From contig NZ_CP046605.1 of assembly GCF_023520795.1 (NCBI RefSeq), positions 682,001 through 746,000 of the forward strand: 64,000 nt of DNA. The letters are read 5' to 3'. Positions 36,123-60,361 of this stretch are shown here, piece after piece. This DNA comes from Corynebacterium accolens. Its GTDB lineage: Bacteria > Actinomycetota > Actinomycetes > Mycobacteriales > Mycobacteriaceae. Numbering within the stretch: the stretch's first letter is position 1; every line of letters starts with the position of its first letter. A program made the translations under genes and the position numbers. The notes under the pieces are model-generated. The model worked only from the letters and a program-made list of their open reading frames with translations. It was not told where the DNA came from and ran no database searches.

Positions 36123-36953
36123 CTAAGCCGGTTTCCTGAGTGGAACGATGAGTGGATCTCCAGTCTCCGGATCCTCAATGACCCGCGCCCGCAGATCAAA
36201 AGCCTCCTGCAGGAGCTCTGCGGTGATGACCTCTGCGGGTGTACCGGAAGCAATGACCTGGCCGTCTTTCATAACCACGAGATAATCGGAGTAGCGCACC
36301 GCCAGGTTGAGATCGTGTAGCACCATTACCACCGTTCTGCCTAGTTCCTGGCGCAGGCTATCGACTAGTTCGAGGATGTCCACGGAGGTCGCGAGATCAA
36401 GGTACGTCGTCGGCTCGTCTAGGAAGAGGATGTCGGTGTTTTGCGCCAACACCATGGAGATCCATACGCGCTGGCGTTGGCCGCCGGAAAGCTCATCCAG
36501 CGTGCGGCTAGCAAGATCTGCAGAACCGGTTTGCTTTAGGGCCTCGAATACTGCGTCTTCGTCTGTGGAGGACCACTGGCGGAACCACGCCTGATGTGGG
36601 TGCCGCCCGCGGGCCACCAGATCGGAGACCAACAGGCCTTCAGGGGCCACGGGGGATTGGGGCAGCATGCCCAGTATGCGGGCGACGTCCTTGCGCTTCA
36701 TGTCCGAGATATTCTGGCCATCCACACTCACGGTCCCGGTATCAAGGTTGAGCAGGCCAGACATGGCGCGCAGCAAGGTTGATTTACCGCATCCGTTGGG
36801 CCCCACGATGGTGGTGATCTTTCCGGCCGGGAACGTGGCGCTGAGATCGCGGATAATGGTGCGCTGTCCGTAGCCCACCGTGACCGAGGAAGCGACGACG
36901 CCACCGGCGGTATTTGGTCGGTCTGCGTTTGGCTGGGGAATGGGGGAGGTCAT
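36123..36953 (-). CDS. Iron-siderophore ABC transporter, ATP-binding protein (FecE/FepC type)
   Basis: A 276-residue ABC ATPase of the iron-siderophore/B12 importer family. Walker A GPNGCGKSTLLRAMSG (about residue 52), Q loop MLPQSPVAPEG, ABC signature LSGGQRQRVWIS (about 153) and Walker B ILFLDEPTTYLD (about 174), plus the His switch LHDLNLA. Pairs with the two FecCD permeases upstream. It starts within the ATGA overlap with the second permease, so the three genes are co-translated. Energises uptake of ferric siderophore delivered by the binding lipoproteins across the intergenic region. Confidence 0.93.
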   Translation of the reverse strand: MTSPIPQPNADRPNTAGGVVASSVTVGYGQRTIIRDLSATFPAGKITTIVGPNGCGKSTLLRAMSGLLNLDTGTVSVDGQNISDMKRKDVARILGMLPQSPVAPEGLLVSDLVARGRHPHQAWFRQWSSTDEDAVFEALKQTGSADLASRTLDELSGGQRQRVWISMVLAQNTDILFLDEPTTYLDLATSVDILELVDSLRQELGRTVVMVLHDLNLAVRYSDYLVVMKDGQVIASGTPAEVITAELLQEAFDLRARVIEDPETGDPLIVPLRKPA

Positions 36954-38062
36954 GCGTCTGTGCTCCTAGTGCGTTGAACGAGTAGGTAGATGAGGAAGAT
37001 GCCGCCCAGTGCGGAGGTGACAATACCCACCGGAAGTTCCACCGGCAGAACCGCTTGGGTGACGATGTCCGCGCCGAGCAGCAGTACTGCGCCGGTAAGC
37101 GCCGACGCCGCAAGCGGGGGACTGGGTACGCCACACAACCGAAGGGCCACCTGGGGCGCTACGAAGGCGATGAAGCCGATGGGCCCGGCAGCGGAGACCG
37201 CTACCGCAGCTAGGGCTACGGCCAATGCCAGCATCGCTACCTGCACGGCGTTGACTCGCTGGCCCAGCGCTCTGGCGAGGTCGGGGCCCAGAGTGGTGGC
37301 CAGTGCATGGTAGGCGATCCAGGCCAGCAACGGGGCGCAGACGATCACAAGGACGGCGATGGGGATGGTGGTACTCCACTCCGACCTCGCTAGGGAACCG
37401 GTGAGCCAGAACTGTGCCTGGCTTGCATCCCGCAGCTCCGCGCGGACCATGAGGAAATTGATGTAGGAACTCAGCAGCGCGGTAATAATGATGCCCACGA
37501 GGACGAGACGGTAGGAATCGGCTTGGCGTCGCCAAGCCAGCGCCCAAATCACCGTGGCGCTCAGGATCGCGCCCAGCAACGCGGCCAGAGGAATGCCGAT
37601 TCCGGCGAGCCAACCGGCGAACCCACCGCCACTGCCGAGGACGATGACCGTGACGGCCATGGCCGAGGCTCCCGTGGTGATGCCGAGGATATCGGGGCTG
37701 GCCAGCGCGTTGCGGGTGACTGTTTGGGTGAGCGCGCCGGACAGCCCCAGCGCGCAGCCGACCGCGATGGCGGTGGCCACGCGGGGCATGCGCCATTCCA
37801 AAACCACGAGTTTTTCCACGCGGCTTCCTTCCCCTTGGAAGATCACCTCAAGTACCCGGGGAACGGAGATGGGGTAATCGCCCAGCCCAATGGAAAGGGC
37901 ACCCAAAAAGACAATGAGCGCTGCGGCGATAACGCATACCAGCACCACCCTCGGGCGCCAGAGGAAGGAGATGGGCCCAGCCCGGAATGGTACCCCGCCC
38001 GGCATCTGCCACGAAGCGCTTTGTTTATCTTGTACGGCCTGCGCAGCCTTGTTGCGTCGCAT
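36950..38062 (-). CDS. Iron-siderophore ABC transporter permease (FecCD type), second subunit
   Basis: A 370-residue FecCD family permease with about nine or ten transmembrane helices. Family features: LEWRMPRVATAIAVGCALGLSGALTQTVTRNALASPDILGITTGASAMAV near the first third, and SAAGPIGFIAFVAPQVALRL and GADIVTQAV in the C-terminal half (coupling-helix region). ATG 38062 overlaps the upstream permease stop (TGATG) and follows the charged leader SASWQMPGG; a longer frame reaching 38233 is rejected as shadow of the first permease. A subunit of the same importer as the neighbours. Confidence 0.92.
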   Translation of the reverse strand: MRRNKAAQAVQDKQSASWQMPGGVPFRAGPISFLWRPRVVLVCVIAAALIVFLGALSIGLGDYPISVPRVLEVIFQGEGSRVEKLVVLEWRMPRVATAIAVGCALGLSGALTQTVTRNALASPDILGITTGASAMAVTVIVLGSGGGFAGWLAGIGIPLAALLGAILSATVIWALAWRRQADSYRLVLVGIIITALLSSYINFLMVRAELRDASQAQFWLTGSLARSEWSTTIPIAVLVIVCAPLLAWIAYHALATTLGPDLARALGQRVNAVQVAMLALAVALAAVAVSAAGPIGFIAFVAPQVALRLCGVPSPPLAASALTGAVLLLGADIVTQAVLPVELPVGIVTSALGGIFLIYLLVQRTRSTDA

Positions 38063-39087
38063 CACAGCGTCATCACCTTCTTCCGGTAAATCAAGGCGAT
38101 GAAGAACGGTGCACCAACGAAGGCCAAAACGATGCCCACTTGGAGCTCGCCGGGGCGGGCGATGAGGCGGCCTACCACGTCCGCACACAGCAATAGCGCC
38201 GCGCCGGCAAGTGCTGAGTACGGCAAAATCCACTTATAATCTGGGCCGGTAAGAGCCCGGACGATATGGGGCACTACCAGGCCAATGAAGCCCAGCGGGC
38301 CCGCGGCAGCCGTGGCCGCGCCGGCCAGCAGCGCGATGATGCCCATGCCGCCCAGCCTTGCGGCCGCGGTATTGATGCCGAGCCCTGCGGCGACGTCGTC
38401 GCCTAAGTTCAAGATATTCAGCTGCGGGCCGGTGGCGAACGCCAGGACCAGCCCCAGCACCACGAACGGCAAGATGCCGAGCGCAATGTTCATATCCCTG
38501 CCGGCCAGGGAGCCAACGGTCCAAAAGCGCATCCGGTCCAGGTTATTCTCATTGGTGAGAACGAATGCGCTGGTAATAGCGCTTAAGACCGCCGACAGCG
38601 CGGCACCGCCTAGCACTAAGGTCAAAGGATCGACCGCTGCCTTGCCCGCGGAGGCCAGGCCAAAGACGAGTGCGGTGGCCGCAATCGCGCCGAGGAACGC
38701 TACCACGACGGTGGCCCACGGGGCGCTGATGCCAAATAAAGCGAAGCTGACCACAACGCTGAGCGCCGCGCCGGAACTGACACCCAGGATTCCCGGATCC
38801 GCCAGGGGATTGCGGGTGTGGCCTTGGATGAGAGCACCGGCGACTCCGAGTGCTGCCCCCACGATGATGGCCAGGATGGTGCGCGGCAGCCGCAGCTCAG
38901 CTACCACGCGTTGGTTGGTGGAAACTTCCTCCTGGCCACCGCGTGCGGCCGGGAGTTCCCGCAGCGCAGTCCACACGTCCTCCGCAGGAATGGAACGGGC
39001 GCCATACAGCAAACTGCAGATAGTGCCAACGAGGACCAGCAGGAGCAGCGCCCCTAGACCCAGGAGGCGGGTAGTGCGCACACTCAT
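38062..39087 (-). CDS. Iron-siderophore ABC transporter permease (FecCD type), first subunit
   Basis: A 341-residue FecCD permease. It has the family motif LRLPRTILAIIVGAALGVAGALIQGHTRNPLADPGILGVSSGAALSVV, and FVGAP near the end after GADVVGRLIARPGELQVGI. About nine transmembrane helices. GGAGG precedes ATG 39087 with 7 bases spacing. First gene of the permease-permease-ATPase operon; the promoter is probably about 260 bp upstream next to a DtxR-like box, so the message has a long leader. Confidence 0.92.
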   Translation of the reverse strand: MSVRTTRLLGLGALLLLVLVGTICSLLYGARSIPAEDVWTALRELPAARGGQEEVSTNQRVVAELRLPRTILAIIVGAALGVAGALIQGHTRNPLADPGILGVSSGAALSVVVSFALFGISAPWATVVVAFLGAIAATALVFGLASAGKAAVDPLTLVLGGAALSAVLSAITSAFVLTNENNLDRMRFWTVGSLAGRDMNIALGILPFVVLGLVLAFATGPQLNILNLGDDVAAGLGINTAAARLGGMGIIALLAGAATAAAGPLGFIGLVVPHIVRALTGPDYKWILPYSALAGAALLLCADVVGRLIARPGELQVGIVLAFVGAPFFIALIYRKKVMTL

Positions 39088-39536: not shown

Positions 39537-39566
39537 TTGATTATTTAGGCAAGCCTAAGTTATCTT
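39537..39566 (+). promoter_or_regulatory. Promoter with overlapping DtxR-like box before the first binding lipoprotein
   Basis: -35 TTGATT (39537-39542) and -10 TATCTT (39561-39566), spaced 18 bp, with the palindrome TTAGGCAAGCCTAA (39545-39558) lying in the spacer. DtxR-iron bound there would block RNA polymerase. Same layout as 59302-59331. Confidence 0.65.
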
Positions 39567-39717: not shown

Positions 39718-40734
39718 ATGACACTCAAGAAAATTCTTGTCGGTACTGCTACTGTGCTGGCTCTGGGCACCGCGGTGACGGCGTGTTCGACTGATGACCA
39801 GTCCGAAAACTCTGCAGACTCCCAGGCGGTCAACGCCGAGCAAGGCGCATTCCCCACCACCATCGAGCATCGCTATGGTTCCACCGAAATCAAGGAAGCC
39901 CCACAGCGTGTGGTCTCCCTAGGCTATACGGATCAGGACGCGCTGCTGGCGCTCGGAATCACGCCGGTTTCCGTGAAGTATTGGGATAGCATGACCCCAG
40001 ACGGGCAGGCTGCGGGCAACTGGTCTAACGACAAGATCGAGGGGGATACCCCTCGAATCGATAAAGACACAGAGGTCAATGCGGAAGCCATTGCTAAAGA
40101 CAAACCAGATCTCATCGTGGCCGTGTACTCGGATATTGATGAAAATACATACAAGAAACTCTCCGATATCGCCCCTGTCGTCGTGCAAAAGGGTGAATAT
40201 AAAGAGCTGCAGCAACCGTGGGACGTGACTACGGAAGAGATTGGGCAAGCCGTAGGAAAGCCTAAAGAAGCAAAACGTCAGGTGGAGCAGGTTAAAGCGA
40301 AGTTTGCAGACCTAAAGGGCCGTCACCCAGAGTGGGCCGAGAAGGAACTCGGTGTGGCCACCGTCTCTGCCGACAGCCTGGCCGTCTTTGCTGAAGAAGA
40401 TCCGCGCAGCCGCTTCTTTACCGAGCTGGGGTTCAAGATCAACCCCGCCTACGCGGCAATCACCAAGGATAAATTCTACGGCGAGGTCTCCAAGGAAAAC
40501 GCTGACCAGGTTGATTCCGACGTACTGGTGTGGGACCAGTTGTCCTACGCTCCGACGCAGGACAAGGCATCTGTTACCGAGGATCCAATCGTGAGCAAGC
40601 TACCCGCCGTTAAGGACGGGCACAGTGTCTACTTGGAAGGTGACCTAGAAAAGGCCTTCGGATGGCAGACCGTGCTGAGCTTGGACTACCTGTTGGATAA
40701 GATCGAGCAGCCGTTGGCGGACGCCACGAAGTAA
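39718..40734 (+). CDS. Iron-siderophore ABC transporter substrate-binding lipoprotein 1
   Basis: A 338-residue lipoprotein with signal peptide ending at the lipobox VTACST (Cys about residue 22). The mature protein is a FhuD/FepB-like periplasmic-binding-protein fold: RVVSLGYTDQDALLALGITPVSVKYW, KPDLIVAVYSDIDENTYKKLSDIAPVVVQ, and VLSLDYLLDKIEQPL near the C terminus. It captures a ferric siderophore outside the membrane for the divergent ABC permeases. GGAG precedes ATG 39718. A DtxR-like box overlaps the promoter. It is separated from the second binding protein by its own terminator. Confidence 0.92.
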   Translation: MTLKKILVGTATVLALGTAVTACSTDDQSENSADSQAVNAEQGAFPTTIEHRYGSTEIKEAPQRVVSLGYTDQDALLALGITPVSVKYWDSMTPDGQAAGNWSNDKIEGDTPRIDKDTEVNAEAIAKDKPDLIVAVYSDIDENTYKKLSDIAPVVVQKGEYKELQQPWDVTTEEIGQAVGKPKEAKRQVEQVKAKFADLKGRHPEWAEKELGVATVSADSLAVFAEEDPRSRFFTELGFKINPAYAAITKDKFYGEVSKENADQVDSDVLVWDQLSYAPTQDKASVTEDPIVSKLPAVKDGHSVYLEGDLEKAFGWQTVLSLDYLLDKIEQPLADATK

Positions 40735-40957: not shown

Positions 40958-40988
40958 TTGCAACGTGGCCCAGGTAACGCTAACCTAA
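40958..40988 (+). promoter_or_regulatory. Promoter with DtxR box before binding lipoprotein 2
   Basis: -35 TTGCAA (40958-40963) and -10 TAACCT (40981-40986), spaced 17 bp. The 19-base segment 40970-40988 (CCAGGTAACGCTAACCTAA) matches the DtxR consensus at 15 or so positions and covers the -10, so repression by iron-loaded DtxR is expected. This is the best DtxR box in the window. Confidence 0.75.
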
Positions 40989-41073
40989 CTTAAAAGTTGC
41001 CTTCGGGTCTACCGGAAAATCCGATGAAAAGAGCTGAAAGGCAACCTCAGGAAACCGACTTTAAGGAAAAGGG

Positions 41074-42057
41074 ATGTCAGTAAAAAGGGGCGCGCGTTCA
41101 TTTATCGCTGCCGCTATCTGTGCCGGATTGGTTCTGTCAGGTTGCTCGTCGAACGATTCAACCGATGAAGCGGCAACAACCTCCGAAGTCGCAGAGGACG
41201 TGACCATTGAGCACGCACGCGGCACGGATACGTATCCGGTCAACCCGCAGAACGTGGTTGCCGTGGGGCCGGCCGTTGATAACCTGCTGGAACTTGGAAT
41301 TAAACCGGCAGCCGTCGTGCAGAATGCAAAAGACAAGAACTCGCCCTGGCGCGAGGGCAAGCTTGATGGCGTCAAGGTGATCGACCAGACAGACTTCAAG
41401 ACTCTGCCCCAGGAACAGATTGCGGCAATCGAACCCGACTTCATCGTTGGTGACTACTGGACAATTTCCGAGGCTAATTACAAGGAATTGTCTGCAATCG
41501 CACCGACTCTCGGCGGAATCTCCGATAAGGGTGAGGGAATTGGCTGGGAATCTCAGCTAGAAGCTTTGGGCAAGATCTTCAATAAGGAATCCGAAGCGAA
41601 GAAAGCCATTGAAGAGGATCAGAAGCGTTTCTCCGACGTGAAGGAGAAACTGCCTAACCTCTCCGGTAAGACCGGCATTGTTTCCCAGTTCGCCCAAGGC
41701 TCCTTTGGCGCCGTTGCTGACCCTGAGGATCCGGGTGCCTCCTTCATCTACGATTTGGGCATGAAGTTCCCAGACAAGCTGACGGACGGTTCCGTGCCTG
41801 TTGATAAGGGTCGCGTCACGCTTTCTCCGGAAAACGTGTCCTACCTGGCCGCTGATTTCATGGTTATTTATAACCGCACCGGCTCAATCGAAGAGGTTGA
41901 AAATATTCCGGGATACAAAGATCTGCCACAGGTGAAATCCGATGCGACTCTCGCTGGCGATGAAGCTGTCGTCGCCGGACTCAACAACCCCACGAGCTTG
42001 AGCCGAGCTTGGGTGCTGGATAAGACGATGCCGACGCTGGAAAAAGTTGGAAAGTAG
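41074..42057 (+). CDS. Iron-siderophore ABC transporter substrate-binding lipoprotein 2
   Basis: A 327-residue lipoprotein with lipobox LSGCSS (Cys about residue 24). The folded part shows the class III binding-protein pattern PQNVVAVGPAVDNLLELGIKPAAVV, EPDFIVGDYWTISEANYKELSAIAPTLGG, and KIFNKESEAKK. It differs strongly from lipoprotein 1, so it probably recognises a different siderophore. No permease/ATPase follows it; it must use the divergent importer or one elsewhere. AAGGAAAAGGG precedes the ATG. It has its own DtxR-box promoter and a terminator downstream. Confidence 0.9.
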   Translation: MSVKRGARSFIAAAICAGLVLSGCSSNDSTDEAATTSEVAEDVTIEHARGTDTYPVNPQNVVAVGPAVDNLLELGIKPAAVVQNAKDKNSPWREGKLDGVKVIDQTDFKTLPQEQIAAIEPDFIVGDYWTISEANYKELSAIAPTLGGISDKGEGIGWESQLEALGKIFNKESEAKKAIEEDQKRFSDVKEKLPNLSGKTGIVSQFAQGSFGAVADPEDPGASFIYDLGMKFPDKLTDGSVPVDKGRVTLSPENVSYLAADFMVIYNRTGSIEEVENIPGYKDLPQVKSDATLAGDEAVVAGLNNPTSLSRAWVLDKTMPTLEKVGK

Positions 42058-42393: not shown

Positions 42394-44262
42394 ATGGTCT
42401 CAAAAATGCCAAGGAACAGCCGGAGCAGGGAAATTTATCCAATTTCTTACCGGGAATTGTATGTGGAAAATATCGAAGATATATCGCCAGCCATGCGGCG
42501 AATTACGCTCAGCGGGGAGCAACTCCGAGACCACGATCGCGATGGTATTTCCGTTCCTTCGCTGGTAAGCCATGGTTTTGACGACGACGTTCGGCTCATC
42601 TTCCCGGATCCGGAAACGGGGGAGCGGCCGCACCCAATAGCGCAAAATGATGGCAACTTATTGTGGCCAGAAGCCGTTAAAAACCTATTCCGCACATACA
42701 CGGTTCGCTACTTTGACGTTGTACGCGGGCGATTAGCCATAGATTTCGCGCGCCATGGTCAGGGCTTGGCCGAAAACTGGTCCCAGAATGCCCGCATCGG
42801 TGACCCCATTTTTGTGGCAGGGCCGAAATCGTGTGCACAGTTACCCACGCATACCGATTGGCTTTTCTTGGCAGGAGACGAGACGGCGCTCCCAGCAATC
42901 GGCCGCTGCCTGGAATCACTCTCGCCAGGGCATCGCGCGGTTGCGGTGGTAGAGGTTCCGACGAGCGCTGATATTCAAGATTTAGACATTCCAGATTCAG
43001 TACAGATCCACTGGGCAGTACGTGACCAGGGTGAGGACTTCGTAGAAAAGTCACGTGCGCTTTTTGAGGGGACTTCTCAGTCGGCATTGCCAGGTGGCGA
43101 AGCATACGCATGGGCGGCGGGGGAGGCCTCCCGGCTGAAACCGCTGCGGCGTTTGTTTAAGGCTTCCGGAATTTCCCCTGAGCATCGGGAAATCACAGGC
43201 TACTGGCGGCGTACCAGCCAAAGCGACGCTAAAGAAAGCGCATCGAGCAGCAGCAATAGTGTTTTGCACAATATCCATGATCTGGCTGAGCTGAATTCAG
43301 CCTTTGCGCTCCGCACTGCCGTGCGTTTAGGGCTCTTCCAAGAAATCGATGCAGGTGCGAACACGGTCCCTGCTCTTGCTGCTGCGACAGAACTGCACGA
43401 GGAGGCGCTCCGGAGGTTTATCCGTTATCTGGCGGCTCTTCAACTCGTCGAAGTACGCGAGCGCACCCTCGCGTTGACCGCAATGGGCGTGGAACTGGCG
43501 GATCCAGATTCCAATGCGGTGCGTTGGTTAAGCGGGCCTGCGCATCTTGAGGCGATGGCGCTGATGCGCCTCGAGGACAGCCTTCGCGCCGGTGGGCCAA
43601 CGCTTCAAGGCGAAAAGGGATTGCCGTGGTCAGAATATCTTGGCCAAGACCCGCACCTGGCAGCCGAACGCTTTGAGCAAAAGAATGTGAGTGCTGGGTG
43701 GACTGCTCCTTCCGCGGCAAAGGAACTGCAGCAGTACCTGGATGACACCGCTCGCGTTCTCATCATTGGCCAGGGAGGTGCAGTATATGCGGATGAAATT
43801 CTCCGCCGATGCGAACATGCTGAGTGCCGGATTATCACCGATGCGTCCTCGGAAGCGGTGCTACGGGAAATCGCAGGAGCTTCTCGTGAACGATGCGAAA
43901 CGAGTGGCGGCGAAAGCGGCTTTTCTCCCACCGAAGCAGACTATGTGTGGGCAACTGACGTTATTTTCATCGATCCCTGGAGCGTCTTTGGTAGCGAGGC
44001 GGTGGCCGCCGAATTAGGCCGCGCGGTTGGTGGGGATAAGTCCCGCCGGGCTTATATCCTTACCGAGGTCCTCGAGGAAGCCGGCGGCGATGAGCATTCC
44101 TATGAAGAGGACTTGGTAAGGCTTTCCATGTTCGGCACCAAGGTGCCGACCCAGGACGATGTCAGCGCTGCTACCGCTGATAGCCGCGCTCTTATTTCTT
44201 CTGCCACGGCTGTTGGCTGGGGCAAACACCTCTTCGTCCTGGAAGCAGAAGCGAATTCCTAA
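42394..44262 (+). CDS. Siderophore-interacting FAD reductase fused to an O-methyltransferase-like domain
   Basis: A 622-residue two-module protein. Residues ~10-280 are a ViuB/SIP-type reductase: FAD-binding barrel (TYTVRYFDVVRGRLAIDFARHGQGLAENW) and NAD(P)H-side motifs GDETALPAIGRCLES (about 170) and AWAAGEASRLKPLRRLF (about 239). These release iron by reducing ferric siderophores in the cytoplasm. Residues ~290-620 resemble the plant-COMT-like O-methyltransferases: a winged-helix dimerisation part (FALRTAVRLGLFQEID), a degenerate SAM loop (VLIIGQGGAVYADEIL), then YILTEVLEEAG and DLVRLSMFGTKVPTQDDV. The single frame has no stop, so it is a true fusion. ATG 42406 is a possible alternative start. 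Confidence 0.85.
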   Translation: MVSKMPRNSRSREIYPISYRELYVENIEDISPAMRRITLSGEQLRDHDRDGISVPSLVSHGFDDDVRLIFPDPETGERPHPIAQNDGNLLWPEAVKNLFRTYTVRYFDVVRGRLAIDFARHGQGLAENWSQNARIGDPIFVAGPKSCAQLPTHTDWLFLAGDETALPAIGRCLESLSPGHRAVAVVEVPTSADIQDLDIPDSVQIHWAVRDQGEDFVEKSRALFEGTSQSALPGGEAYAWAAGEASRLKPLRRLFKASGISPEHREITGYWRRTSQSDAKESASSSSNSVLHNIHDLAELNSAFALRTAVRLGLFQEIDAGANTVPALAAATELHEEALRRFIRYLAALQLVEVRERTLALTAMGVELADPDSNAVRWLSGPAHLEAMALMRLEDSLRAGGPTLQGEKGLPWSEYLGQDPHLAAERFEQKNVSAGWTAPSAAKELQQYLDDTARVLIIGQGGAVYADEILRRCEHAECRIITDASSEAVLREIAGASRERCETSGGESGFSPTEADYVWATDVIFIDPWSVFGSEAVAAELGRAVGGDKSRRAYILTEVLEEAGGDEHSYEEDLVRLSMFGTKVPTQDDVSAATADSRALISSATAVGWGKHLFVLEAEANS

Positions 44263-44302: not shown

Positions 44303-45664
44303 TTATTTTCGGACCACGGTCCCGCGTGGGAGGCGGGTAGCCGTTACAGCCATAAGTGTGGTGAACACGGTGAAGTAGGCGAACGTTGTCCAGCCGACCC
44401 CGTGGGTGAGGGTCATCAGCACCGTGCAGACGGATACGCCTAGTGCGCTGCCAAGTTGGGTCGCTATGCGGCCCGCAGCGCTGGCATGGACGACTTCATC
44501 TTTGGTTAAGCCGTGGTAGGTCGCGGACATCGTGAGCACCGTAAGGGCTCCGATGCCGCCACCGCGCACGAATAGCGCGCAGCCTTGAAGGATGAGCCAG
44601 CCTGCCGCCTGGCCGGTGGGAAAAGCGAAAGGTAGCGTTCCGATAATAGTGGCGACAATGCACATGTAGACGGTCTTCCGCGTACCCCATCGGGCGATGA
44701 ATTTTTTCGATGCCGAGCGGCTGAAATAGGCGCCCACGCTTTGTAGGGCCAGCAGAAGTCCCGCATGCAGTGCGGTGTAGGCGTAGTTGCTCTGATAGTG
44801 CAGTGGAATGAGGAAGAGCCCGCCATAAAATACGGTGCTTGCAATGGCCAGTGTTGCCCATGCTGAGGAAAAGGAGGGGTGGGTAAATAGGCGGGCATCG
44901 ATAAGCGGAGACGGCGCCCGGAGCGCATGCAGCACAAAGTAGCCAATCAGCCCCGCGCCGGCGGCGAGGAGAATTACGCTTGCCCAAGAACTCATGTGCC
45001 CGACGGTGGTAAAGCCATAAACCGCCGCGAGCAAACCTGGCGGGAGTAAGAGGTATCCCATGCGGTCCATCTGGGCTGCAGGGGCTGCTGGGGTCCGTTC
45101 TAGATAGTGCACGGCAAGGGCAATCGCGGCGATGCCGATGGGGACGTTGATGAGGAAGATGGCGCGCCAGCCGATGGCATCGACAAGCAGCCCGCCCAGT
45201 AGTGGGGCAATCGCAGGCGCAATGACCGCTGGTAGACCGATTGCGGTGATGGCACGTGTGGACTGGTCCTTTCCGGCATTAGTGACGATGAGGGTCTGCA
45301 TCACCGCCACCGAGAAGCCCGCAGCGAATCCCTGCAGGATGCGGAAGGCGATGAGCATGTCTATATGCGTAGACATCGCGCACAGGATTGAAGCGACGGT
45401 GAAGGTTGCGAGCGCGGTAATCCAGAGATTTTTGGCGCCGAAGCGGCGCGTTGCCCAGCTGCTGAGCGGAATGGCCATGGTGGAGGCCAACCCGTAGCTG
45501 GTGATGACCCATTGGGCGAGGACGATAGGTGCGTGGAACGCCTCGCTGATGGAATGAATGGCGACGTTAACGATGCTGATATCTAGCAGCGGCAAAATTG
45601 AGCCGAAGACAAGGGCGATGACTACCCGCCTAGTCTGGGGGTCGAGTTTTTCTTCTTCCTGCAT
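44303..45664 (-). CDS. MFS transporter, DHA2-type drug/proton antiporter
   Basis: A 453-residue major facilitator with about 12-14 transmembrane helices. Features of the EmrB/QacA family include DISIVNVAIHSISEAF in helix 1, WVITSYGLASTMAIPLSSW, and the antiporter motif C-like GLPAVIAPAIAPLLGGLLVD in helix 5. Substrate unknown: drug efflux is most typical, but its location beside siderophore genes also allows siderophore export. A MarR regulator lies 75 bp upstream on the same strand and likely controls it. It faces the fusion gene tail to tail with a 40 bp gap. Confidence 0.88.
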   Translation of the reverse strand: MQEEEKLDPQTRRVVIALVFGSILPLLDISIVNVAIHSISEAFHAPIVLAQWVITSYGLASTMAIPLSSWATRRFGAKNLWITALATFTVASILCAMSTHIDMLIAFRILQGFAAGFSVAVMQTLIVTNAGKDQSTRAITAIGLPAVIAPAIAPLLGGLLVDAIGWRAIFLINVPIGIAAIALAVHYLERTPAAPAAQMDRMGYLLLPPGLLAAVYGFTTVGHMSSWASVILLAAGAGLIGYFVLHALRAPSPLIDARLFTHPSFSSAWATLAIASTVFYGGLFLIPLHYQSNYAYTALHAGLLLALQSVGAYFSRSASKKFIARWGTRKTVYMCIVATIIGTLPFAFPTGQAAGWLILQGCALFVRGGGIGALTVLTMSATYHGLTKDEVVHASAAGRIATQLGSALGVSVCTVLMTLTHGVGWTTFAYFTVFTTLMAVTATRLPRGTVVRK

Positions 45665-45738
45665 CAGGGGTTTCCTTCGAAGTGCGTGCGCAGATGGCGT
45701 GGTGAGGTGTGGTCATGATGGAGAGAGTGATGGAGGTA

Positions 45739-46182
45739 TTAGGAGGCGAATGGTCCGTCGTGGGTGAGGGCGGTGAGCATTTCCGCGAATTGTTGTTGCG
45801 CGGGCTCCGGCCAGCGGGCGAGGAATTCTTCCAATTGTTGGGTCAGGCGCGAGCGCATCACGGCGACGTTGTCTTGGCCCAGTGGGGTTAGCGACAGTTG
45901 TATCCATCGCGCGTCGCGGGGATCGGTAGCGCGCGCGATGAGTCCGGCCTTTTCTAGGGCCGAGGCGTGGCGGGATACCACTGAGCGGTCTAGGCCGATG
46001 ACTGAGGCGAGCTCTTTCGGAGTGGAGGGTCCACAGCGGTCTAGGCCGCTGAGCACCAAATATGTGGATTCGTTGATTTCTTCACCGAGCCCCTCGGTGA
46101 GATGGGCGTACATACGTCGACGGAGGCTGCGCTGGGAAAGTAGTCCCAGTGCGTCGGCGACTTGTTTGCTTGGAGTGTCCAT
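45739..46182 (-). CDS. MarR family transcriptional regulator
   Basis: A 147-residue winged-helix regulator: MYAHLTEGLGEEINESTYLVLSGLDRCG helix 1-2, recognition region TPKELASVIGLDRSVVSRHASALEKAGLI, and wing ATDPRDARWIQLSLTPLGQD. MarR proteins usually repress adjacent efflux genes and release DNA on ligand binding; the downstream MFS gene (75 bp) is the obvious target. ATG 46182 (MDTPSKQVADALG) is used; a frame from 46197 adds five residues. No ribosome binding site is seen for either. The sequence ahead has TGCACTGTGCA, a small palindrome, as a possible operator. Confidence 0.85.
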   Translation of the reverse strand: MDTPSKQVADALGLLSQRSLRRRMYAHLTEGLGEEINESTYLVLSGLDRCGPSTPKELASVIGLDRSVVSRHASALEKAGLIARATDPRDARWIQLSLTPLGQDNVAVMRSRLTQQLEEFLARWPEPAQQQFAEMLTALTHDGPFAS

Positions 46183-46484
46183 GCCAGAAGAATACATGCA
46201 CTGTGCACGCGTGTTTATTGCACGCTAGCTTTGGCGAAATGATCGCGGTAAAGACCGGAAAGCGTATAAAGCAACCGCGTTTGTCCATTTTTCGGGTCGA
46301 TTTTTGGTGAAACGCGGTTGTTTTGGACAACGTGGCGCTCCCCCGAGTCTGTTTATGCTGGGCCGGCGTCTCAAACGTGCGAAAAGCGATGCCGATTCTT
46401 CCATTCTCGGTTCCCGTGCACGCACCTTAACTTTCTGGAACGCTAGGATAGGAGAAAATAGATCTAGTTAAGGAGTACAAAGCA

Positions 46485-47108
46485 ATGGCTAAAGAAACTG
46501 CACGCGCCCTTGGCCACGAAGTAGACGTGGATCGCGAGAAATTTACTTACCTAGCATCCACTGATGCCGAGGGCAACAAGATTGAATCCGGAAAGGCTGC
46601 GGCAGCGGGAGCTGGGGCCGCAGGAGCTGCAGCTGCTGGAACTGCTGCTGCTGGCGCCGCCGCAACGGCAAGCGCAGATGAGCAAAATGATGCTGCGGCG
46701 CAGAGTGATTACGAGCCGAAGAATCACGTCGTTACCGGCGCTGAGGAAGAGCACGTCGGCACTGCGGCGGAGCAGCCCGATCTGCAGGAACAGCTGGATG
46801 AGGGTAACGCGGACTATGAGCCCTCACAGCATGTGGTGGGCGAGGTCGAAGAAGAGCACATCGGTACCGCGCCGGAGCAGCCGGAAGAGAATGCGGCAGA
46901 TGATGAGCGCGATGACTTCGATGACCTGAAGGATAAGGTCACCGAGGCCGGCAATGTCGTTGAAGAGGCCATCAACCGTGCGAAGGACTTCGTGGAAGAC
47001 AAGGCGCAGGAATACCAGGAAGGATCCCGTAAGAAGGGCGGATTCTTTGACCGCGTGAAAGACGTTGTGCGCGAGGCTCGCGATAATCTCGATGAGAAGC
47101 GCAAGTAG
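46485..47108 (+). CDS. Acidic repeat protein with Ala-rich segment and helical tail
   Basis: A 207-residue protein with no recognised family. Residues 38-64 are almost pure Ala/Gly. Two diverged repeats follow: DYEPKNHVVTGAEEEHVGTAAEQP (75-98) and DYEPSQHVVGEVEEEHIGTAPEQP (110-133). The C terminus (about 145-207) is predicted amphipathic helix with alternating charge (DKVTEAGNVVEEAINRAKDF, FFDRVKDVVREARDNL), similar to LEA/YtxH-like stress proteins. No signal peptide. AAGGAG precedes the ATG by 10 bases. A terminator follows. The gene is not in an operon. Confidence 0.8.
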   Translation: MAKETARALGHEVDVDREKFTYLASTDAEGNKIESGKAAAAGAGAAGAAAAGTAAAGAAATASADEQNDAAAQSDYEPKNHVVTGAEEEHVGTAAEQPDLQEQLDEGNADYEPSQHVVGEVEEEHIGTAPEQPEENAADDERDDFDDLKDKVTEAGNVVEEAINRAKDFVEDKAQEYQEGSRKKGGFFDRVKDVVREARDNLDEKRK

Positions 47109-59169: not shown

Positions 59170-59301
59170 CTCATAAAATCCATCCGCGCGGGGGTAGGGT
59201 AGGCGGGTATCGATTTGTCCTCGCAACAGGGGTTTTCTTTCGCAAATGCAGCGCGTTTCTATGGTCGGGACGATGCTCTTTAGGAAAGGTTACCCTCAAC
59301 C

Positions 59302-59331
59302 TTGATTGGTTAGGGTGACTTAAGATAAGTT
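59302..59331 (+). promoter_or_regulatory. Promoter with DtxR-like box before the third binding lipoprotein
   Basis: -35 TTGATT (59302-59307) and -10 TAAGTT (59326-59331), spaced 18 bp. The spacer holds TTAGGGTGACTTAAGATAA (59310-59328), which matches the DtxR consensus at 13 of 19 positions. Layout same as the promoter at 39537-39566. Confidence 0.6.
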
Positions 59332-59368: not shown

Positions 59369-60361
59369 ATGAAGAAAATTCATCGCGCTCTTTTGTCTGT
59401 CGTAGCTGTCGCCTCCTTGGCACTTACCGCATGTAGCACTGCGGAAGAAGAGGACCAGGGTTCGAATAAGGGGACATCGGAAAGCGCACTGCAGATCGAA
59501 GATAATAACGGCACCCACGAGCTGGACGTACCGTTCGAGCGCGTCGCGGTAACGGATAACCGCGCCTTCGAAATCCTCGCGGACTGGGACCTCAATATCG
59601 TGGCTGCCCCGCTCGGCATTGTCCCAGATACCCTCTCGGACAAGATCAATGAAGACTCGATCGAGGCCAACCTGGGTATGCACCGCGAACCTGACCTGGA
59701 AGCACTGGTTGCCGCAGAGCCGGACATCGTCATCAACGGTCAGCGCTTCACCCAGCACCAGGCTGATATCGAGGCACTGATGGAAGATACCCCGGTCCTC
59801 GACTTCTCCCCGCGCGACGATAAGGACATGGCGGAAGAACTCATCCGCCAGACCGAAGCACTGGGCAAGATCTTTGACCACGAAGATGAAGCAAAGAAGC
59901 TTGTCGATGACTTCAACAAGGCGCTGGACCGCGCCAAGGATGCCTACGATCCTGAGAAGACCGTCATGGCAGTCAACACCTCCGGTGGCGATATTAACTA
60001 CATCGCCCCAGGCAAGGGCCGCTTCTTCGGGCCATTCTTTGACCTGCTGGGCATGAAGCCATCCCTCGAGGTGGAAAACGCCAGCGATGACCACGAGGGC
60101 GATGACATCTCCGTCGAGGCAATCGCTGATTCCAACCCTGACTACATCCTCATCATGGACCGCGACGGTGCTATTGCCAAGGATGAAGCAGGCTACACCC
60201 CAGGTAAGAAGCTGGTAGAGGATTCCGCGGCACTCAAGAACGTGGCTGCCGTGAAGGAAGGCAAGATCGTTGCCGCTCCGCAGGATACCTACACCAATGA
60301 AAACATCATTACCTTCACGGAGACGCTCAACGCGATGGCAGACGCGTTTGAAAAGAACTAG
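59369..60361 (+). CDS. Iron-siderophore ABC transporter substrate-binding lipoprotein (FatB/CeuE type)
   Basis: A 330-residue lipoprotein; signal peptide with lipobox LTACST (Cys about residue 22). The mature protein has the FatB/CeuE-like pattern VPFERVAVTDNRAFEILADWDLNIVAAPLGIVP, EPDIVINGQRFTQHQADIEALMEDTPVLDFSP and TVMAVNTSGGDINYIAPGKGRFFGPFFDLLG. These bind catecholate-type ferric siderophores. AAGGA precedes ATG 59369. First gene of a four-gene operon with a hairpin between it and the first permease, which gives excess binding protein over permease. Confidence 0.92.
   Translation: MKKIHRALLSVVAVASLALTACSTAEEEDQGSNKGTSESALQIEDNNGTHELDVPFERVAVTDNRAFEILADWDLNIVAAPLGIVPDTLSDKINEDSIEANLGMHREPDLEALVAAEPDIVINGQRFTQHQADIEALMEDTPVLDFSPRDDKDMAEELIRQTEALGKIFDHEDEAKKLVDDFNKALDRAKDAYDPEKTVMAVNTSGGDINYIAPGKGRFFGPFFDLLGMKPSLEVENASDDHEGDDISVEAIADSNPDYILIMDRDGAIAKDEAGYTPGKKLVEDSAALKNVAAVKEGKIVAAPQDTYTNENIITFTETLNAMADAFEKN

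Follow-up and report, generated by a model that had tools for sequence, protein, structure and literature searches.

Reductases of the siderophore-interacting protein (SIP) family are usually single chains of about 250-300 residues, although this size is no functional requirement. Why, then, should one of them carry a second half? The question is raised by a gene of Corynebacterium accolens that lies in the 64,000-nucleotide stretch of contig NZ_CP046605.1 analysed here (hereafter the window). The gene is a single open frame on the forward strand, which runs from ATG to stop at 42394-44262 and encodes 622 residues. The protein is thus outside the usual SIP size, and the solved SIPs that it matches have 251-301 residues. 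Only shorter frames, of up to 144 residues, are found antisense to it. An earlier note had described the gene as a SIP reductase joined in one frame to an O-methyltransferase-like module, and this description was confirmed by the Pfam SIP domains and by the homology of the C-terminal half described below. The same note had proposed that iron release may be coupled to methylation or, failing that, that the tail may be only a dimerisation or binding module.

The SIP half is complete. The FAD-binding domain (PF08021, FAD_binding_9; 83.2 bits against a cut-off of 23) covers residues 24-146 (42463-42831), and the NAD(P)H-binding SIP domain (PF04954; 107.2 bits against 26.3) covers residues 155-273 (42856-43212), with GYWRR at its end. 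Both domains were matched in all 51 rows of an alignment of 51 fusions (hereafter A1). Residues 100-105 read RTYTVR, in agreement with RxYT[VI]R, which we take to be the flavin-binding motif of SIP reductases; Y102 and T103 are invariant in the 51 rows of A1, and R100, V104 and R105 are conserved at 90% or more. The best solved relative of this half is 4yhb (E 4.6e-43), presumably FscN of Thermobifida fusca. The window protein resembles FscN-like SIPs in its two complete SIP domains, its RxYTVR motif and the GYWRR near the end of the SIP half, but differs from them in having about 340 further residues after it. The window protein would be a cytosolic ferric-siderophore reductase. Both domains being present, the SIP half is expected from its family to bind FAD, reduce an imported ferric siderophore with NAD(P)H and free Fe(II). 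According to a published discussion, one subgroup of SIPs has an additional helix at the C-terminus that is connected with a less accessible FAD pocket, whereas FscN belongs to the subgroup that lacks this helix; one SIP is reported to break the subgroup rule (PMC11965169). The tail of the window protein would join the SIP half at the point where other SIPs either end or carry this extra helix, which is thought to restrict access to FAD.

A fusion of this kind could be an artefact of annotation, a sequencing error or a frameshift. Among the matches listed, however, relatives 94 to 81% identical to the window protein have the same full-length fusion, the closest named ones being Corynebacterium sp. 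ACRPS (94%), KPL1814 (86%), MSK130 (85%) and C. macginleyi (83%). The fusion is therefore not a sequencing or annotation artefact, and the same frame is found in close and distant relatives alike. Nor is it restricted to its own genome, since copies occur across Corynebacterium and other Actinomycetes. The survey of Corynebacterium genomes that the earlier note had suggested found the fusion in at least 58 of 242, or at least 55 without the three visibly shortened tails; any match at E<=1e-10 occurs in at least 147 of the 242, many of them SIP only. The fetched Corynebacterium loci contained 65 frames with SIP plus tail, from 58 genomes; this set leaves out one locus at a contig end (L009), one with a stop between the halves (L064) and three with SIP only (L074-L076), and six duplicate loci (L031-L036) were removed. 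Full-length fusions were also found in other genera of the same family. Further full-length fusions come from other families of the order (L117, L118, L121, L122) and from elsewhere in the class Actinomycetes (L123-L132). In a plasmid collection, 2 of 319 matching records, from Tsukamurella tyrosinosolvens and Pseudonocardia, span at least 80% of the protein; they are labelled 'siderophore-interacting protein' and 'SIP domain-containing protein'. The idea that this gene is the best candidate in the window for an undescribed system needs qualification, since many Actinomycetes share the architecture and both plasmid copies bear plain SIP labels. A description of a SIP/O-methyltransferase fusion was not found in open-licence PMC papers, and the term 'pseudo-methyltransferase' was not found in the part of that literature that was sampled.

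What is the tail? Its first recognisable part, residues 303-358 (43300-43467), matched the winged-helix O-methyltransferase dimerisation domain (PF08100) at 27.0 bits, barely above the Pfam cut-off of 25.6, and the same domain was matched in 43 of the 51 rows of A1. Of the Pfam domains that the earlier note had suggested looking for, FAD_binding_9, SIP and Dimerisation were thus found in the window protein, but Methyltransf_2 (PF00891) was unmatched in it at E<=1. Across A1, Methyltransf_2 was matched at E<=0.01 in only 8 of 51 rows (best E 5.2e-17), and NCBIfam gave two weak methyltransferase matches for the window protein, both far under their cut-offs. Clear signals came from comparison with O-methyltransferases themselves: in phmmer, the C-terminal half matched the O-methyltransferase DnrK (PDB 7phf) with E 2e-16, and hhalign aligned 41 Corynebacterium tails with 14 standalone O-methyltransferases over 323 columns (probability 100, E 1.5e-41). 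By these alignments, homology to O-methyltransferases extends over all of the C-terminal half. Residues 455-622 (43756-44259) would correspond to the Rossmann methyltransferase fold, in which residues 455-470 form a degenerate motif I. The altered glycine loop pointed out in the earlier note is indeed present, as IIGQGGAVYADEIL, and so is the C-terminal LSMFG motif.

A winged helix might also be read as a regulator, binding DNA or a partner protein and so tying the state of the reductase to the expression of iron-uptake genes. Matches of this kind do exist: HVO_A0261_N was matched as well (E 7.9e-4, under the cut-off; 12 of 51 rows), as was MarR_2 in 6 of 51 rows. The best domain match, however, is the O-methyltransferase dimerisation domain, which is continuous with the O-methyltransferase fold, and in O-methyltransferases the winged-helix domain serves for dimerisation. 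We consider a regulatory tail very improbable.

To judge the active site, the tails were compared with standalone O-methyltransferases. In 41 genomes of the order, PF00891 was matched at 30 loci, 28 of which were processed to yield 27 frames; 16 of these matched the tail of L121, a fusion with a canonical site, and 14 were long enough. No PF00891 match was present in the window's own genome at E<=1e-15. The fusion rows were thinned by similarity from 99 to 69, and four loci in which the motif region is unrecognisable (L058, L059, L072 and L111) were left out of the motif counts. Four SAM-site or catalytic letters were counted, the roles of which are general knowledge of class I methyltransferases. 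The motif-I Asp is present in 14/14 standalone enzymes and 0/69 fusions (Ile in the window protein), and the acid after strand 2 in 14/14 and 12/69 (Thr in the window protein), six of the 57 fusions that lack it having a gap. The motif-IV His is found in 11/14 against 0/69, and the motif-IV Trp in 13/14 against 1/69. All four letters occur together in 11 of the 14 standalone enzymes, a set which leans towards canonical forms as it was chosen partly by likeness to the canonical L121 tail, whereas 56 of the 69 fusions have none and 13 have one; the window protein has none. The unthinned set of 99 rows gave 72 with none and 27 with one. Pattern counts that are independent of alignment columns agree with these letter counts: [HN][DN]W was found in 0/69 fusions against 11/14 standalone enzymes, and a D-x-G-type motif anywhere in 1/69 against 12/14.

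These counts bear directly on the proposal that the protein is a bifunctional enzyme, in which iron would be set free by the SIP half and the release then made irreversible by the tail through methylation of the siderophore left behind or of a catechol fragment. The tail does have the fold of SAM-dependent O-methyltransferases, its relative L121 retains all four site letters, and Methyltransf_2 is still matched in a few rows of A1. With none of the four letters in the window protein and at most one in any of the 69 fusions, however, an active methyltransferase was rejected as the best reading. In addition, relatives in which the tail is lost or shortened keep the SIP half. The coupling of iron release to methylation put forward in the earlier note thus finds no support in these letters, which 11 of the 14 standalone enzymes possess in full, and we regard the bifunctional enzyme as highly unlikely.

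The glycines of the site have fared differently from its other letters. G-x-G is partly kept in the fusions, the first glycine in 62/69 and the third in 46/69, and weak or different nucleotide binding by the fusion tails is possible on this pattern. The tail might then hold SAM or another nucleotide as a cofactor that is not consumed, in the way that RdmB employs SAM when it hydroxylates, or it might act on the reductase as a regulatory sensor. RdmB is among the structure matches (1qzz, E 3.8e-13) and belongs to the same superfamily as the fusion tail. RdmB, whose hydroxylation reaction requires SAM, is believed no longer to act as a methyltransferase, so that it offers a precedent for this fold leaving methylation behind while still needing SAM (PMC10491745). 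The intact SAM site to be expected of an RdmB-like hydroxylase was not found in the fusion tails when the same four letters were inspected: 57/69 fusions lack the acid after strand 2 that should bind the ribose, and the motif-I Asp is missing in 69/69. RdmB still needs SAM but the fusions are without the letters expected for it, and the comparison is therefore only partial. A tail that uses a bound nucleotide in one of these ways seems to us unlikely, though less so than the two preceding proposals.

L121 (1504-3291 of its locus, forward strand), from another family of the order, is alone among the fusions seen in having a canonical SAM site; VDVGGGTG, LVE and LHDW are all present, which makes it a natural reference for the pseudo-methyltransferase tail. 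Its position differed between trees. In a tree of 84 rows L121 joined the standalone O-methyltransferases with support of 100/99, but in a tree of 39 rows the fusions and L121 stood together on one side of a branch against the standalone enzymes (98/89). When a nearer standalone enzyme, L224, was added, L121 paired with it (83/82), and in this set a single origin of the fusion was not rejected (p-AU 0.31). In view of the conflicting trees and this p-AU value, we claim neither one origin nor two; L121 may be an early branch that has kept the site, or a second, independent fusion. Genes like L121 were not found again in 17 genomes of its genus and family. In 397 genomes of the order there were 13 matches, seven of which were inspected at the locus level: apart from the standalone L224, these are six fusions without a canonical motif I, among which L223 is identical with the L122 gene.

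If the tail does not methylate, is it maintained at all? In 64 pairs of close relatives, which are not independent of each other, the median dN/dS was 0.20 for the tail and 0.145 for the SIP half, and the tail had the higher value in 54 of the 64 pairs. The tail is under purifying selection and has not simply decayed. The fusions also share a signature of their own near the C-terminus, GW followed by G, S or D, in 65 of the 69 fusions and in none of 15 comparison forms (the 14 standalone enzymes plus L121). In the window protein it is G608-W609-G610 (44215-44223); these positions are conserved in 69, 66 and 57 of the 69 fusions, respectively, and are not conserved in the comparison forms. E571 is also frequent, in 54/69 fusions, as is H568, in 49/69 fusions and 6/15 comparison forms.

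Some lineages have dispensed with the tail. In the tree of the SIP half, two loci with shortened tails (L058 and L072) and one SIP-only locus (L074) nest within the fusion clade. L074 (3905-4834, forward strand, genome G213), a 310-residue frame among Corynebacterium fusions, is sister to the group of the window protein (100/85) and represents a natural loss of the whole tail. The shortened tails retain the winged helix and the extreme end, but their Rossmann motifs are unrecognisable. The single-domain SIPs L133-L137 were also placed among the fusions, with weak support (84/74). From the nesting of L058, L072 and L074 it follows that the SIP half can do without an active tail. That a few species manage in this way could also be a sign that the contribution of the tail is small. 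One of three loci in genome G119 (L064, 3164-5050, reverse strand) is interrupted by a stop codon where the SIP half and the tail meet, although each half can otherwise be recognised; it would be either an inactivated copy or two separate proteins.

It would be conceivable from such cases that the tail is decaying and persists as a passenger for no other reason than that translation of the fusion runs on through it. Its higher dN/dS, its shortening or absence in some lineages and the stop in L064 are in line with this idea. On the other side stand the low median dN/dS of the tail, the near-universal GWG signature and the fact that at least 55 of the 242 Corynebacterium genomes have the frame at full length, and we judge a mere passenger improbable.

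The surroundings of the gene point to iron uptake. As the earlier note had stated, two genes for siderophore-binding proteins (Peripla_BP_2, PF01497) lie upstream on the same strand, at 39718-40734 (E 6.6e-27) and, directly before the fusion, at 41074-42057 (E 5.7e-21). The best NCBIfam match of the former is a model of an Fe-enterobactin binding protein, under its cut-off; the latter adjoins the fusion in the close relatives L140-L144 too. Divergently oriented are FecCD-type permeases and an ABC ATPase on the reverse strand (36123-39087). Pfam identified FecCD at 38062-39087 (E 7.8e-94) and ABC_tran at 36123-36953 (E 2.1e-31), and the middle frame (36950-38233) was named a permease from its position and from matches in relatives. 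Scored against a generic DtxR box consensus, DtxR-like iron boxes were found upstream of both binding-protein genes: overlapping boxes (15/19) at 40970-40993 on the forward strand, ahead of the binding-protein/fusion pair, and one box (14/19) at 39545-39563, also forward, in the divergent promoter region. A convergent MFS exporter and MarR gene (44303-46197) were rejected as part of the unit, as they stand beside the fusion in the closest relatives only (both in L141 and L142, the MFS gene in L140, neither in L143 or L144). Further along, at 46485-47108 on the forward strand, there is an acidic low-complexity frame of 207 residues with a two-fold repeated stretch (HVV..EEEH.GTA..QP).

This association was followed in the 70 loci for which flanking sequence was retrieved (some 9 kb for 40 of them and some 4 kb for 30, shorter where a contig ended) rather than in all matches, some being close relatives; neighbours were called by matches to the window's own proteins. 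A binding-protein gene lies within 4 kb of the fusion in 32 of the 70 loci. A binding-protein or FecCD gene lies within 4 kb in 43 (29 of the 50 Corynebacterium loci and 14 of the 20 others) and within 1 kb in 34; in 27 loci neither was found within 4 kb. As the window's own genome has only 7 binding-protein genes in 2.47 Mb, we estimate the chance of such proximity at a few per cent. In 22 of the 70 loci the box upstream of the fusion was outscored by at most one of 25 pieces drawn at random from that locus, about 5 being expected by rank, in a comparison that favours the upstream piece because the random pieces are mostly coding. An iron box upstream of the fusion is not universal. Pfam analysis of 93 of 213 predicted neighbours, a hand-picked set in which several loci with obvious transporter neighbours are absent, identified 13 binding proteins, 6 AMP-binding enzymes, 6 ABC ATPases, 5 FecCD permeases and 3 lysine/ornithine monooxygenases. 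Pieces of all five very long neighbouring frames scanned (in L146, L148, L165, L167 and L172) contained NRPS-type domains, and a chorismate-binding enzyme is near the fusion in L172. In the window's genome no NRPS condensation domain was found at E<=0.01. The organism therefore probably uses siderophores made by others, and the window fusion probably serves imported siderophores.

Two other loci of the same genome belong to this subject. A further Peripla_BP_2 gene lies in the window at 59543-60286 on the forward strand (G000:C1:741543-742286), with DtxR-like boxes just upstream at 59280-59328; gene and boxes probably represent one more uptake system under iron control. A second, different SIP-type gene is found at G000:C1:448567-448938 on the reverse strand (L213, a 403-residue open frame), near a binding-protein gene at 449720.

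The reading that we favour, and hold to be reasonably probable, is that the window protein is a ferric-siderophore reductase with a non-catalytic pseudo-methyltransferase tail for dimerisation and substrate handling. By its sequence, the tail descends from a DnrK-type O-methyltransferase: the winged-helix dimerisation domain is still there and so is the fold, but the letters expected to serve SAM binding and catalysis are gone. It shares both of these domains with DnrK-type enzymes (7phf, 5eeg), but differs from them in the missing letters, in the new GWG and in its covalent attachment to a SIP. The winged helix would make the reductase a dimer. The former pocket for an aromatic substrate, or the new face around GWG, might recognise the siderophore or gate the flavin pocket, and methylation would play no part. 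The fallback idea of the earlier note, that the tail may be only a dimerisation or binding module, seems to have been right. A bolder extension, which we offer tentatively and think rather unlikely as a whole, would be that the fusions form an actinobacterial class of reductases that are obligate dimers by way of a dead methyltransferase, in which the old substrate pocket, remodelled around GWG, takes up the ferric siderophore (or the ligand once freed) and offers it to the flavin, so that a pseudoenzyme would set the siderophore specificity; L121 would then be the active ancestor or a second fusion that is still active.

To our knowledge, little is understood of the way in which cytosolic reductases select and hold ferric siderophores, which are large, and all solved SIPs found here are small proteins of a single chain. 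The annotation labels seen, 'siderophore-interacting protein' and 'SIP domain-containing protein', hide half of the protein. If the favoured reading is true, the widespread fusion would clearly illustrate how an enzyme can become a domain that assists iron release, its SAM site gone and the domain nevertheless kept by selection.
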